From the NCBI GenBank assembly GCA_001769535.1, contig MEOH01000020.1:1-64000 (forward strand): a stretch of DNA of 64,000 bases, written 5' to 3'. Made by a program: the position numbers and the translations under genes. The first letter of the stretch is position 1; each line of letters starts with the position of its first letter. Of this stretch, positions 5,194-49,942 are shown piece by piece. This stretch comes from Bacteroidetes bacterium GWF2_38_335 (GTDB lineage Bacteria > Bacteroidota > Bacteroidia > Bacteroidales > GWF2-38-335). The notes under the pieces were generated by a model. It ran no database searches. It worked only from the letters and a program-made list of their open reading frames with translations, and was not told where the DNA came from.

Positions 5194-5658
5194 TTAAAAT
5201 TCGATTTGTTTTTCAATCTCGCTGATTTTTGATACCAGAGTGTTGTTTATGGTTTCAACCACTTTTGTAAATACTTCAGAATTTGAAGTCTTGAAGGTGT
5301 TTCCGTTCTCGTCGGTCAGCACGATATTTTCGCTAAACTGATTAGCACCCACGACAAAAGATGTTAGTTTTTTGCGGCTTGCCTCAAGTTTTTCCCTTTT
5401 CTCGATCAGGGTTTTGAGGGTTTCAACCTTCTCGATTTTTTGGTCAAGAGTCAGAGTCGGAGCAATAACCGGAGCAACCACCGGAGGATTTTCCACCACT
5501 GGAGAAACAGGGTTTTTCACTTCGGGTTTTTCCTCCCCGTTAATTTTCACGTTTTCGGGCAGAGTGCCTTTAATCATGGCTACGCTGTTTTTTGATTTAA
5601 TTTCAATTACATCACTTTGTGATGCTTTTCCGTTGGTTTTCTTTGTTAAAGTTTCCAT
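5194..5658 (-). CDS. Hypothetical protein of the mobile element (154 aa)
   Basis: A soluble protein without signal peptide or membrane segment. Residues 1-45 are polar and low in complexity, 46-68 form a Pro/Val-rich linker (PVVENPPVVAPVIAPT), 70-100 predict a coiled-coil helix (KIEKVETLKTLIEKREKLEA), and the C-terminus ends in another amphipathic helix (VSKISEIEKQIEF). I do not recognise a domain of known function. It is encoded just upstream of the ardC pair in the same direction, which suggests an accessory role in the same conjugative element. A strong terminator follows directly. Confidence 0.65.
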   Translation of the reverse strand: METLTKKTNGKASQSDVIEIKSKNSVAMIKGTLPENVKINGEEKPEVKNPVSPVVENPPVVAPVIAPTLTLDQKIEKVETLKTLIEKREKLEASRKKLTSFVVGANQFSENIVLTDENGNTFKTSNSEVFTKVVETINNTLVSKISEIEKQIEF

Positions 5659-16410: not shown

Positions 16411-16503
16411 AGCACGTGTGATAGAAATCGAACCTGTTCTATGTCATTGGAAGCTCCACATTGGGCCTCGAAAGCCTGTGTGCTGCCATTACACTATGCC
16501 CGT
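16411..16503 (-). other. tRNA-like sequence, possibly a degenerate tRNA
   Basis: On the minus strand there is a convincing D-arm (GTGTAATGGCAGCAC), an anticodon-like hairpin with loop TTTCGAG (which would read TCG), a variable-arm-like stem TGGA-GCT-TCCA and a T-loop-like GGTTCGATT. The acceptor halves pair poorly (ACGGGCA with CACACGT) and the T-stem is weak. It overlaps the last 15 bases of the DUF4143 remnant. It is either a decayed tRNA, a remnant left by an insertion, or an unusual tRNA that needs a covariance model to judge. Confidence 0.35.
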
Positions 16504-44198: not shown

Positions 44199-46919
44199 CT
44201 ATCCATGTTTAATTGCAGCCTGAGCAGCAGCAAGTCTTGCGATTGGCACCCTGAAAGGTGAGCAGCTCACGTAGGACAATCCAAGTTTGTGACAGAATTC
44301 AACTGAATTGGGTTCTCCGCCATGTTCGCCACAGATACCGAGTTTGATATCAGGACGGGCTTTTCTTCCACCTTCGCAGGCAATTTTCATCAGCTGGCCA
44401 ACAGTATCCTGATCAATTTGCTGGAACGGGTCAACCGGTAAAATTTTCTGATCAAGATAATCACCTAAAAATCCTCCGATGTCATCTCTTGAGAAACCAA
44501 AGGTCATCTGAGTAAGGTCATTGGTTCCGAATGAGAAGAAAGTAGCATATTTGGCAATCTTTTCAGCAGCCAGTGCAGCTCTCGGAATTTCAATCATGGT
44601 TCCGATCATATGCGGAATTTCCTTCATGTTGTATTTGGCCAGAACTTCAGGATACACTTTTTCGAAAATCTTATACTGATGCTGTAATTCTGTTTCGATA
44701 CAGGTAACAGGAATCATGATTTCGGGGAATACCTTTTTGCCTTCCTGCAACAGTTCAGCAGCAGATTCAAAAATAGCACGAATCTGCATTTCGGTGATTT
44801 CGGGGTAGGTGATGCCCAAACGAACACCGCGGTGACCCATCATCGGATTCACTTCATGCAGTTTGTTTGCTCTATCAAGGAACTGATCCATGGTGATGTT
44901 CAGAGCTTTTGAAAGTTTTATTCTTTCATCTTCGCGTTCCGGAACAAACTCATGTAATGGTGGGTCAAGGGTACGGAAAGTTACCGGGTAGCCATCCATA
45001 GCAGCCAGAGTTCCTTTGATATCTTTTTTCACGTATGGGAACAATTCATTCAGTGCAGCACGACGTTCAGCTTCGGTCGAAGAAATAATCATCTTACGTA
45101 AATAAAACAATGGTTCTTCAGAATTTTTACCGTAAAACATATGCTCGGTTCTGAAAAGTCCGATACCTTCTGCTCCAAATGTACGTGCTTTTGCAGCATC
45201 TTCGGGAGTGTCGGCATTGGTCCTTACTTTCATTTTCTTGAATTTGTCAACGATGGTCATGAATTTAACCAGGTTTTCATTTTCAGCAGCGCTAACTGTA
45301 GGAAGTTCGCCCTGATAAACAGTGCCTTTTGTTCCGTTTAATGAAATAACATCGCCATCGTTTAAAGTAACATCTTTCATTTTTATGGTTCTGTTACTCC
45401 AGTCAATTTTAATATCGGCAGCACCAACGATGCAACATTTTCCCCATCCGCGTGCAACCAGTGCAGCGTGTGAGGTCATACCACCGCGGGCAGTCAGGAT
45501 AGCCTGAGCAGCGCGCATACCTTCGATATCTTCGGGATTTGTTTCTTCTCTGACAAGGATCACTTTTGCTTTCGGGTCTTTTTTCACAGCTTCAACAGCA
45601 TCGGCAGCTGTCAGCACAATTTTACCGAATGCACCACCCGGACCGGCAGGCAGACCTTTACAAAGTACAGAAGCTTTTGTTTCAGCTTTTGGATCGAGGA
45701 GCGGGAAGAGGAGTTCTTCAAGCTGGGAAGGTTGAACGCGCAAAACAGCTGTTTTTTCGTCAATCATTCCGGCTGCAAGCATATCCAAAGCCATTTTCAC
45801 AGCAGCGGTACCATTGCGTTTACCAACGCGGCACTGCAGCATATATAATTTTTTCTCCTGAATAGTAAATTCAATATCCAGCATATCATGATAATGTCCT
45901 TCTAATCTTTGCTGAATTGCATTTAATTGCTGATATGCTTCAGGCATAGCTGTTTCAAGTGAAGCAAGATGTTTGGTGTGTTCAGATTTTCCAACTTCAT
46001 TGATTGGGTTTGGAGTCCTGATACCGGCGACCACATCTTCGCCCTGGGCATTAACAAGCCATTCGCCATAAAAGTAATTTTCTCCTGTTGCAGGGTTCCT
46101 TGTGAAAGCAACGCCGGTTGCAGAAGTATCGCCCATATTACCGAATACCATTGTCTGAACAGTAACAGCAGTTCCCCATTCGTGAGGAATACCTTCGATT
46201 TTACGGTAGGCAATAGCGCGTTTACCGTTCCAACTCTGGAATACAGCAAAAGCAGCACCCCATAATTGTTCCATTGGATCTTCGGGGAAAGCAACGCCTA
46301 AAACTTCTTTTACTTTGTTTTTATAAGCAACAATAAGTTCTTTTAGGTCAGTTTCGGTCAAATCAGTATCACTTTTGTAACCTTTGGATTCTTTCAGATT
46401 GTGCAATAAGTGCTCGAGCTGAACTCTAACGCCTTGTCCTTCTTTAGGTTCGATTCCGGCAGCTTTTTCCATAACAACGTCAGAATACATCTGAATCAGT
46501 CGTCTTTGTGAATCATATACAAAACGGGCATTGCCTGTTTTTTTAATCAGGGCTTCGCGTGTTTCATCGTTCAGACCAACATTCAAAACAGTCTCCATCA
46601 TTCCGGGCATTGATGCACGGGCGCCTGATCTAACGGACATCAGACAGGGATTTTCTTTGTCACCAAATTTTGTTCCGGTAATTTTTGCAATATGGGCAAG
46701 TCCGTTTTCAACTTCAGCTCTCAGCAGTTCCTGCAGTTTTTCTTTTCCAACAGTGTAATACTCGGTACAAACATCAGTGGTGATGGTGAATCCGGGAGGA
46801 ACAGGAATATCCAGTAAACTCATCTCGGCAAGGTTTGCACCTTTTCCGCCAAGCAAATTCTTCATATCGGCTTTACCTTCGGCCGATTTGTCTCCAAACA
46901 AATAAACGCGTTTTGTCAT
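44199..46919 (-). CDS. ppdK: Pyruvate, phosphate dikinase
   Basis: A 906-residue enzyme that interconverts pyruvate + ATP + Pi and PEP + AMP + PPi. The N-terminal nucleotide-binding domain starts KNLLGGKGANLAEMS. The swivelling phospho-His domain has GGMTSHAALVARGWGK with the catalytic His near residue 480. The C-terminal PEP/pyruvate barrel has GLFRTEHMF, RTLDPPLHEF, GHRGVRLGI and the terminal Cys in KLGICGEHGG. In anaerobes the enzyme works in PPi-based glycolysis or gluconeogenesis. It has its own leader with a 7-4-7 palindrome (46952-46969) and its own terminator. Confidence 0.97.
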   Translation of the reverse strand: MTKRVYLFGDKSAEGKADMKNLLGGKGANLAEMSLLDIPVPPGFTITTDVCTEYYTVGKEKLQELLRAEVENGLAHIAKITGTKFGDKENPCLMSVRSGARASMPGMMETVLNVGLNDETREALIKKTGNARFVYDSQRRLIQMYSDVVMEKAAGIEPKEGQGVRVQLEHLLHNLKESKGYKSDTDLTETDLKELIVAYKNKVKEVLGVAFPEDPMEQLWGAAFAVFQSWNGKRAIAYRKIEGIPHEWGTAVTVQTMVFGNMGDTSATGVAFTRNPATGENYFYGEWLVNAQGEDVVAGIRTPNPINEVGKSEHTKHLASLETAMPEAYQQLNAIQQRLEGHYHDMLDIEFTIQEKKLYMLQCRVGKRNGTAAVKMALDMLAAGMIDEKTAVLRVQPSQLEELLFPLLDPKAETKASVLCKGLPAGPGGAFGKIVLTAADAVEAVKKDPKAKVILVREETNPEDIEGMRAAQAILTARGGMTSHAALVARGWGKCCIVGAADIKIDWSNRTIKMKDVTLNDGDVISLNGTKGTVYQGELPTVSAAENENLVKFMTIVDKFKKMKVRTNADTPEDAAKARTFGAEGIGLFRTEHMFYGKNSEEPLFYLRKMIISSTEAERRAALNELFPYVKKDIKGTLAAMDGYPVTFRTLDPPLHEFVPEREDERIKLSKALNITMDQFLDRANKLHEVNPMMGHRGVRLGITYPEITEMQIRAIFESAAELLQEGKKVFPEIMIPVTCIETELQHQYKIFEKVYPEVLAKYNMKEIPHMIGTMIEIPRAALAAEKIAKYATFFSFGTNDLTQMTFGFSRDDIGGFLGDYLDQKILPVDPFQQIDQDTVGQLMKIACEGGRKARPDIKLGICGEHGGEPNSVEFCHKLGLSYVSCSPFRVPIARLAAAQAAIKHG

Positions 46920-47126: not shown

Positions 47127-47666
47127 ATGAAAAGTCTGATAATCATAATTGTTCTGTTTTCATTGGGTTTAAAAATTTACCCTCAGAGTTGGAGAATAGT
47201 TGATCAAAGCGATTACAATATGAAATATAAACTTCCGAAAAGCTGGAATGTAGATGGTTTTGGAGCGAGTGATGACTGGGATGCCTATGGAAGCAGTGTT
47301 TGCCATTGTTCGGGAACAATAAATTTTTCGGATATTGATAGTATGCGTGTGGGAATGGTTGTATATCCATGCTTGAAAGAAGATGTTAATTCAGAGAAAA
47401 GACAGAAAGTCTGGAATTATGAATTTATTAAACAGGGGGACTTTGATACAATAAAAACAAAAAAACTGACTTTTATCCGCCAGAAATCCGATTTCGGGAA
47501 TGAAGATGATTATTACAACAGCAAAGATTATGAGGCATGGCAATTAATTGCCTATAATGGGAAATTTGCTTTTGTAATTTATTTTTGGGGAAGAAATGAA
47601 TCCATGAAAAGGGAAGAAAAAACGATTATTAAGATATTGGAATCGTTTATTGGTATAAAAAAGTAG
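47127..47666 (+). CDS. Exported protein of unknown function (179 aa)
   Basis: Signal peptide MKSLIIIIVLFSLGLKIYPQ with cleavage after YPQ. The mature part resembles small exported PsbP/DUF1795-like domains: an opening SQ.Y.MKYKLPKSWNV segment (YKLPKSWNVDGFG), a middle Cys pair (SSVCHCSGTI) and a final helix (KREEKTIIKILESFIG) typical of domains that start with a lipid- or protein-binding sheet closed by a helix. No function can be given. It stands alone between ppdK (divergent) and a 16-bp hairpin. Confidence 0.65.
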   Translation: MKSLIIIIVLFSLGLKIYPQSWRIVDQSDYNMKYKLPKSWNVDGFGASDDWDAYGSSVCHCSGTINFSDIDSMRVGMVVYPCLKEDVNSEKRQKVWNYEFIKQGDFDTIKTKKLTFIRQKSDFGNEDDYYNSKDYEAWQLIAYNGKFAFVIYFWGRNESMKREEKTIIKILESFIGIKK

Positions 47667-47737: not shown

Positions 47738-47774
47738 TAATTTATAAGAGCCCGAAAAGGGCTCTTATAAATTA
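47738..47774. terminator. 16-bp perfect hairpin between genes
   Basis: TAATTTATAAGAGCCC (47738-47753) and its exact complement at 47759-47774 enclose GAAAA. It may terminate the 47127 gene on the plus strand and act as a backstop for the minus-strand RNA that ends at about 47783. The T content after it is modest. Confidence 0.6.
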
Positions 47775-47782
47775 AGTCTCAC

Positions 47783-48558
47783 AAAAAAAAGGGAGCCATT
47801 CTTGACGATTGACTCCCTTTCACTTAAACAACTTTCGCTGCTCAAGTGCCAGACTTTTTCCGGACTGAACTTTATACTTTCGGCATCCTGCAAGCAGTTT
47901 GCTTCGGGTAAGTATCCGGTGTGCCGGCATTTGGTACGCAGCCTGATGATTTTATCGTTTCAGGCACCGATGTCGTTTCACGTAGGGGTTTCACGAGTTT
48001 CAGTTAACATACCTTATTCCGTTCTGCATCCACCGGCAGTGACTGACCTTCAGAATTCAACCGAAGTCTCATTCTTTCGGGCCCGACTCATGGAGCATGA
48101 TTTGCGGGTTCACTTTGAGTCTGTTTTCCTCCGAAAAGGTCAACAGTTCTTTTTTAGCTCTTTTGCTGTGCCACATCCTTCCTTGCGGTCGGCTGCAACA
48201 CCCGGGTTCGCCTTTTGTGCCGAAACACTTAAGGTGCCACTTGCGCGGGAGTCAGATCCCATCCTGCTTCATCTGCAATGATGTAAAACTTTGGTGGTTC
48301 ACTTTGTAATACGCCGATCCGAAAACCTGCGTCACTTTTTTAGCCCTGATTAATCGTCGCTCACTCCGCCTTGCGGCTTTGTCAACAACATTTGAAAACC
48401 ATTCACCGAAATGAACAATCCCTTTTAAACCGGAGTCAGAACCAGTCTCGCATCACCTGGCTTCTGCATTTTTTTGAAAGAACCTGATCAGTTTCCGCCA
48501 AACTAATGACGGTCTTTATCACATTCTGCTCACCAAACCTCAGTTCGTCAGCAGTCTG
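47783..48558 (-). ncRNA. Candidate long structured non-coding RNA (about 776 nt)
   Basis: A gene-free stretch, richer in G and C than the other intergenic DNA here, is framed on the minus strand by a consensus promoter (48565-48597) and an intrinsic terminator (stem 47810-47817 with 47791-47798, then eight T). No minus-strand frame of 60 codons or more is present. Many local stems are visible: CTGCT/AGCAG (48526-48554), a 7-bp stem at 48488-48506, GCC-GCAA-GGC with a GNRA loop (48368-48377), an interrupted GUGACGC stem (48306-48335), CUGUU/AACAG with inner CCU/AGG (48121-48146), CCGAA/UUCGG (48061-48080) and AUACUU/AAGUAU (47874-47915). It lacks the signatures of RNase P RNA, tmRNA, SRP and 6S RNA. 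The identity is unknown. Confidence 0.6.
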
Positions 48559-48772: not shown

Positions 48773-49942
48773 ATGCTGAACATTGCACTATTTGGCGCTC
48801 CGGGCGCTGGAAAAGGAACCCAATCCGAAAAACTTATTAAAGATCATAACCTTGCCTATATTGCAACTGGTGATATTTTACGAAGGGAAATTCAGGAGGG
48901 AAGCGATCTGGGAAGAAAAGCTAAAAGTATAATTGATGAAGGCGGTTTGGTATCTGATGAAATCATTGTTCAGATCATCGAAAAAAACATAACCACAAAT
49001 ACCGATGTTAATGGTTTTTTGTTTGACGGGTTTCCGCGTACCTATGTGCAGGCATATATTCTGGAAGGACTTTTACTTAAATTGAACACGGAACTTACCT
49101 GCATGCTTAGTCTGGAAATTACCGAGGAAGAAGCCATAGAAAGATTGCTGGAAAGGGCTAAAACCTCGGGCCGCTCTGATGATAACCTTAAAGTTATCAA
49201 AAACAGATTGAAGGAGTACCGTAATAAAACATTGCCTGTTGCAAATTTTTATAAGGATAAAAATATTTTCATGCCTATTAATGGTATGGGAACTATTAAG
49301 GATGTTTATGGCAGACTGAATGATGCCATCGAACATACACTTAAAAAAGCTTTGCTGAATGTGGTCATTTTTGGTCACCCCGGGGCTGGAAAAGGAACCC
49401 AGGCCCAAATGCTGGCAAAAAAATACAACCTTACTTATATCTCAACCGGAGATATGCTCAGGCAGGAAATAAACAAAGGCACCGATCTGGGGAAAAAAGC
49501 AGCAGCATATCTTAAAACCGGAGCTATTGTTCCGGATGAAATTGTAATCAGAATCCTGGAGACGAAAATCAAGAAAAACCAGAAATCAAAAGGGTATTTG
49601 TTTAATGGCTTCCCAAGAACCATGGTTCAGGCATATATACTTGAGGGACTTTTGCTAAAATTAAACTCATCCATTTCATGCATGATTGAAATAAAAGTTC
49701 CCATGCTCGAACTTTTCAGACGTCTTTCCAGTAGAGCAAAAACTGAAAGCAAAAAATCTTATGATACAGAGACCGAGGCAATCGTAAAAAGACTCGAAGA
49801 CTATGAGAATATCACCGTTCCGGTTGCAGATTACTACCGTTCGCAGAGCAGGGTTTTCACTGTTGACGGTATGGGCAACAAGGATGAGATATTTTTACGG
49901 CTTTCTGAACATATCGAGTCTGCATTTAAACGGGCCAGATAG
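48773..49942 (+). CDS. Tandem-fused adenylate kinase (two domains)
   Basis: ATG 48773 (MLNIALFGAPGAGKGTQ) gives 389 residues made of two adenylate kinases in series, domain 1 about 1-190 and domain 2 about 195-389. Both have a P-loop (GAPGAGKGTQ; GHPGAGKGTQ), TGD.LR and GFPRT, and share the exact segment VQAYILEGLLLKLN, pointing to internal duplication. Domain 1 has DGFPRT and a lid Arg in KTSGRSDDN. In domain 2 these read NGFPRT and KTESKKSYDTE, so the Mg-coordinating Asp and the lid Arg are lost; it may be regulatory or weakly active. Both are the short form without a zinc lid. An in-frame extension to 48578 is unlikely to be used. Confidence 0.9.
   Translation: MLNIALFGAPGAGKGTQSEKLIKDHNLAYIATGDILRREIQEGSDLGRKAKSIIDEGGLVSDEIIVQIIEKNITTNTDVNGFLFDGFPRTYVQAYILEGLLLKLNTELTCMLSLEITEEEAIERLLERAKTSGRSDDNLKVIKNRLKEYRNKTLPVANFYKDKNIFMPINGMGTIKDVYGRLNDAIEHTLKKALLNVVIFGHPGAGKGTQAQMLAKKYNLTYISTGDMLRQEINKGTDLGKKAAAYLKTGAIVPDEIVIRILETKIKKNQKSKGYLFNGFPRTMVQAYILEGLLLKLNSSISCMIEIKVPMLELFRRLSSRAKTESKKSYDTETEAIVKRLEDYENITVPVADYYRSQSRVFTVDGMGNKDEIFLRLSEHIESAFKRAR

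Follow-up and report, generated by a model that had tools for sequence, protein, structure and literature searches.

To our knowledge, few bacterial noncoding RNAs reach the size of the putative RNA described here (~776 nt). A precedent for repeated architecture is the tandem glycine riboswitch, in which two similar structured domains in tandem are followed by a terminator. OLE has a length of about 600 nt (PMC9723947). OLE, ROOL and GOLLD form homo-oligomers that are RNA-only assemblies, whereas the raiA motif is reported as a monomer in the same source (PMC12286853), so a multimer cannot be deduced from large size by itself. Group II introns include circularly permuted ones (PMC8637638).

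The putative RNA occupies positions 47783–48558 on the minus strand of the window, the 64,000-nucleotide stretch of DNA analysed here (bases 1–64000 of the contig). It would resemble OLE, ROOL and GOLLD in being a stand-alone bacterial RNA of several hundred nucleotides with many helices, here predicted, and no protein product; unlike these, it has no Rfam match, carries two homologous tandem modules and is absent from the searched phage and plasmid records. With the tandem glycine riboswitch it shares twin domains in tandem before a terminator, but it has no riboswitch match and no gene directly downstream on its strand. Group II introns are likewise large multi-helix RNAs, and the window contains an end of such an intron at another place, whereas 47783–48558 shows no intron family match at E up to 10. 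Judged by its stand-alone position, size and predicted fold, the putative RNA is best read as being of the OLE/ROOL/GOLLD kind and a member of none of these families.

The RNA sits in a 1.1-kb intergenic gap flanked by two plus-strand genes, one of unknown function without a Pfam match (47127–47666) and one encoding a double-domain adenylate kinase (48773–49942). The next minus-strand gene of known family, a pyruvate phosphate dikinase gene, starts at 46919, ~860 nt beyond the RNA and behind the opposing gene. A Pfam scan of the neighbours detected no mobile genes; a type IX secretion sorting domain was found in one neighbouring gene and, like the promoter type described below, points to a Bacteroidota host.

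Directly upstream of the RNA, a motif scan revealed a promoter-like site, TTTG-N21-TATATTTG, on the minus strand (48597–48565). The spacing between TTTG and TAnnTTTG elements is 19–21. Both elements of this site agree with the Bacteroides consensus for the primary sigma factor, TTTG and TAnnTTTG, given in PMC7366714. The initial annotation had proposed a consensus promoter, of which the Bacteroidota-type match stands; on its own the motif is weak evidence, because the 64-kb window has five sites of this type where 2.55 would be expected, and 7 of 100 shuffles reach at least five. A scan for E. coli-type promoters returned sites no commoner than in its own shuffles. At the other end, the strong same-strand intrinsic terminator claimed earlier was borne out by an 11-bp stem followed by a U-run (47820–47783, minus strand; mean pair probability 0.97). 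This terminator is absent from the list of a simple terminator scanner, probably because 11 nt are spanned inside the 11-bp stem and the scanner permits 8. Past it, an inverted-repeat scan located a perfect 16-bp inverted repeat (47738–47774) between the terminator of the RNA and the end of the opposing gene, probably a second terminator common to both, giving two in a row. The G+C content of the RNA stretch (0.47) is above that of the adjoining spacers (0.345 and 0.228), as first described, and above that of the window (0.379).

Screening the whole window against Rfam 15 at gathering cut-offs gave two matches, neither within 47783–48558. At E up to 10, with and without flanks, nothing credible emerged for the feature, the sole match inside it being SAM-II (14.8 bits against a cut-off of 44; E 7.6), and the Rfam check for a known family thus returned no significant match. 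None of the OLE, ROOL, GOLLD, RNase P RNA, tmRNA, 6S and SRP models reached its gathering cut-off at the feature, and ARAGORN reported no tmRNA in the window, in agreement with the earlier exclusion of RNase P RNA, tmRNA, 6S and SRP RNA. Among titles and abstract openings, we found none describing such an RNA, the literature being compared by description and not by sequence.

The new result of this analysis is an internal duplication: a ~185-nt module occurs twice in tandem in the middle of the RNA, the two copies having diverged. Numbering the RNA as p = 48559 − window position, the best split self-alignment pairs RNA 100–269 with 284–458 and scores 51, compared with a maximum of 42 in 300 dinucleotide shuffles. 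Self-alignment and a covariance model delimit module A at RNA 102–283 (48457–48276, minus strand) and module B, its diverged tandem copy with the same fold, at RNA 286–471 (48273–48088, minus strand). The two are identical at 115 of 169 aligned bases, and the stretches UCUGACUCC, UUUCGG, CCGCAAGG, GCUAAAAAAG, UUUUCGGA and CAAAGUGAACC are common to both. A covariance-model search with the copy-A model detected no third module within the RNA.

In the predicted fold of either copy, a closing helix of 12–13 positions (P1) is followed by four hairpins with the loops UCUGACU, UUCG, GCAA and UUCG, in this order. Hairpin 1 comprises 48444–48431 in module A (loop UUCUGACU) and 48260–48247 in module B (loop AUCUGACU). 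Hairpin 2 carries its UUCG loop on a U-G pair (A, 48420–48397; B, 48234–48211), and 5 of its 10 pairs are changed on both sides between the copies. Hairpin 3, obtained from the fold and the structure-fitted alignment (A, 48389–48356; B, 48201–48168), presents the GNRA loop GCAA within CCGCAAGG; the GNRA-capped stem noted in the initial annotation is thus present once per module. Hairpin 4, again with a UUCG loop on a U-G pair (A, 48336–48307; B, about 48146–48121; all minus strand), is flanked by the fixed stretches GCUAAAAAAG and CAAAGUGAACC and has 6 of 11 pairs changed on both sides, counted over helices 6 and 7 of the structure-fitted alignment.

We compared the base pairing of the two copies by several approaches. 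The covariance model built from copy A alone (R1) detects copy B at 47.8 bits, whereas a sequence-only model (R3) reaches 13.8 bits. With the 115 identical bases held fixed and the 71 others permuted, 35 of the 38 pairs tested are intact in copy B, the null being 24.1 ± 2.1 (maximum 32), and none of 20,000 permutations reaches 35. Resolved by helix, the fraction of permutations as good was 0.005 for hairpin 2, 0.025 for hairpin 4, 0.030 for P1, 0.059 for hairpin 3 and 0.28 for hairpin 1, the weakest helix. In the structure-fitted alignment of A and B, which is biased toward the structure it was fitted to, 94.6% of cells are paired and 16 of 47 pairs are changed on both sides; neither value was reached in 500 shuffles, and slid controls pair 32–51% of cells. 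In a plainer test, the minimum-energy fold of each copy was projected onto the other through an alignment made from sequence alone; 27 of 43 pairs were kept in one direction and 34 of 51 in the other, not above the null, with the both-side changes in the second direction reached by just 240 of 5000 permutations. We attribute this negative outcome to gaps misplacing hairpin arms. A pairwise MAFFT alignment of the copies put GCTAAAAAAG in the wrong place. Both copies were consulted when the module structure was drawn, and the test yielding 35 of 38 pairs was designed after the plainer test had failed.

A structured RNA very probably exists, at minimum over the ~370 nt that the modules cover, because the A-only model finds copy B far above the sequence-only score and nearly all tested pairs are kept. 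The modules descend from a duplication and have apparently been kept by selection on base pairing. As no homologue was found, the covariation is that between two internal copies only; two copies within one molecule permit a test of structure even where no homologue is known.

For the RNA as a whole, the folding energy is better than that of shuffles on the minus strand only, with a z of −3.99 (20 shuffles) compared with −0.27 and +0.19 in two tests of the plus strand. The RNA nearly without its terminator (RNA 1–740) retained a z of −3.04, with 0 of 100 shuffles as good. Among eight 200-nt minus-strand windows the z values lay between −1.88 and +0.73, and the windows covering the modules were near or above 0; local folding of the module region is therefore at chance at this window size, which counts against a structured RNA. 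Unconstrained, the whole-RNA fold gives module A a different pairing, and a fold in which both modules are imposed is 18 kcal/mol less favourable. The proposal of a large structured minus-strand RNA without a family is thus carried by its promoter and terminator bounds, its folding and the kept duplication, and is weakened by the plainer test and by the module windows at chance.

The long-range closing pairs of the initial annotation did not survive. AUACUU/AAGUAU (RNA 644–649/680–685) is a local helix with a mean probability of 0.53, and the CUGCU/AGCAG pairing is absent from the predicted fold, AGCAG falling within a 12-bp hairpin with a 4-nt loop directly before the terminator (RNA 711–738; 47848–47821, minus strand; mean pair probability 1.00). 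The predicted closing helix is instead CAGACU/AGUCUG (RNA 1–6/704–709; 48558–48553 with 47855–47850, minus strand), with a mean pair probability of 1.00 in the energy model only. Outside the modules (RNA 1–101 and 472–738), the structure is a model from folding energy alone.

Taken together, we lean towards a stand-alone gene specifying a noncoding RNA of the large 'ornate' sort, ~776 nt long, whose twin modules would serve as a scaffold with two docking domains. The two tandem ~185-nt domains, sharing the same predicted secondary structure, would act as equivalent docking units, with the invariant loops and the A-rich segments left unpaired (UCUGACU, UUCG, GCAA, GCUAAAAAAG and CAAAGUGAACC) as candidate docking features. 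Such a scaffold may bind two copies of a partner or pair with further copies of itself, a mechanism suggested by the duplication together with the homo-oligomers known for OLE, ROOL and GOLLD (PMC12286853). The RNA is unlike a regulator of the next gene, because the terminator comes first and the next same-strand gene follows only after ~860 nt, behind the opposing gene. A bolder version, which we hold to be rather unlikely, is a new RNA class arisen by internal duplication, with pseudo-two-fold symmetry and an ordered RNA-only complex or a doubled partner, so far in one lineage. An unassigned large RNA in which an internal duplication can still be recognised would illustrate one way for RNAs of this sort to become larger.

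The repetition of the fixed loops would also suit a sponge-like regulatory RNA, for which CsrB and 6S are the models and in which a protein or small RNAs are sequestered by the recurring loops with no ordered assembly. Each fixed loop (UCUGACU, the UUCG pair and GCAA) indeed occurs twice in one terminated RNA. We nevertheless regard a sponge as unlikely, given just two repeats, each a large folded domain instead of one of many short ones, and no Rfam match to such families.

Less probable still is a cis-acting attenuator or a tandem riboswitch-like leader, in which the modules would control the terminator that they precede as two tandem structured domains. The terminator 5′ arm GGGAGUCA (47813–47820 region) is a perfect 8-nt complement of UGACUCCC in hairpin 1 of module B (48247–48254) and is complementary over 7 nt to module A, a complementarity seen in the sequence that may represent a switch or a chance match. 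What comes directly after the RNA is the second inverted repeat and the opposing gene, so that the putative RNA does not lie directly upstream of a same-strand gene as a riboswitch or attenuator would, and no riboswitch family reaches its cut-off.

The putative RNA is single-copy in its own genome, and a nucleotide search for homologues, as foreseen in the initial annotation, produced no credible one in the order and phylum genome samples, phages or plasmids. A DNA search of 60 relatives and 395 phylum genomes returned only the own locus as a full match (these and the following DNA-search counts include the own genome, the sole full match). Among 364 order genomes, 14 others gave 24–46-nt matches (E 9e-5 to 0.007), which were rejected as homologues: of the seven inspected, six lay within frames of 318–1015 codons and one covered the terminator only. 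Phage and plasmid records contained no DNA match. Pattern scans recovered the own locus only in 198 order genomes and 10 stretches in 84,980 species genomes, all of them inspected and none credible, with at most 11.6 bits for the RNA model R2, which scores 198 and 194 bits on the own locus. Three pattern scans of viral contigs gave 0, 13 and 8 stretches, none credible and the last eight without an R2 match. One viral contig (L042) reached 14.5 bits at its pattern site; another (L049) gave 26.6 bits off its pattern site, inside an open frame starting at 5634, and was taken as chance.

Searching directly with R2, we found the own locus only in 393 order genomes. When as many as 67 candidates per genome were scored in 39 relatives, two further matches appeared, one of 15.8 bits (E 0.23) and one of 14.1 bits (E 0.55), likewise judged to be chance. 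The sole other match in 395 phylum genomes (45 nt, 25.4 bits, E 6e-4) lies in a spacer between two open frames, covers hairpin 4 and its flank only, and was judged to be chance. Since searches over more than 40 genomes scored two (DNA) or six (model) candidates per genome, in genome sets that overlap, weak relatives can be missed. The pattern scan also showed AAAGTGAACCT twice, about 125 nt apart, in a Muriicola marianensis spacer (locus L009, 4180–4360), where no RNA-model match exceeded 7.7 bits.

The putative RNA is thus an orphan, with no credible homologue among the genomes and viral contigs searched, and this absence gives no sign of long conservation. It must accordingly be of recent origin, evolve fast, have arrived by horizontal transfer or occur only in unsampled lineages. 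Should a single lineage be its whole range, there may be more large functional RNAs, and with shorter lifetimes, than searches based on families can reveal.

A mobile-element RNA or remnant with no effect on the host, for instance a satellite or an intron that has been rearranged, would account for a G+C content above the local level of the genome. It would also fit a same-genus genome in which the adenylate kinase orthologue (83% identical) is separated from its upstream neighbour by a 92-nt gap; the RNA is absent there, with no R2 match. This origin is about as improbable as the attenuator, the RNA being single-copy, with no mobile gene among its scanned neighbours and nothing similar in the Rfam intron families or in the phage and plasmid records searched.

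Opposite the RNA runs a 159-aa open frame with a TTG start (47802–48281, plus strand), which we judged not to be a gene by length, Pfam and tblastn tests. Its 165-codon stop-free run was matched or exceeded in 147 of 2000 dinucleotide shuffles, and the frame is no longer than chance allows. It had no Pfam match at E 0.001 and no tblastn match among plasmids; on protein homology the answer is less clean, as 98 other genomes gave two weak matches (E 0.002 and 0.008), that at E 0.008 being antisense to a 535-aa ORF. The frame stops at 48281, short of module A, and the indels between modules A and B have lengths not divisible by three. With no long open frame listed on the minus strand either, protein coding in 47783–48558 is unlikely, in keeping with the initial description of a stretch without protein genes. 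The reading that there is no functional RNA here, and that the stretch is mere spacer or holds an overlooked protein gene on the plus strand, is accordingly very improbable: the open frame, the lack of relatives, the chance-level local windows over the modules and the negative plainer test would fit it, but the coding evidence, including the indels and the early end of the frame, goes against a gene, and one would not expect base pairs to be preserved between the copies of a duplication in mere spacer.

Elsewhere in the window, positions 20–97 of the plus strand, at the very start of the contig, match domain V/VI of a group II intron at 60.6 bits, and the intron is therefore cut by the assembly end. 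ARAGORN further called a 92-nt tRNA-Arg with the anticodon tcg on the minus strand (16412–16503), where the Rfam tRNA model stays below its cut-off and mechanical ORFs overlap the call; this element is a degenerate, false or odd tRNA.
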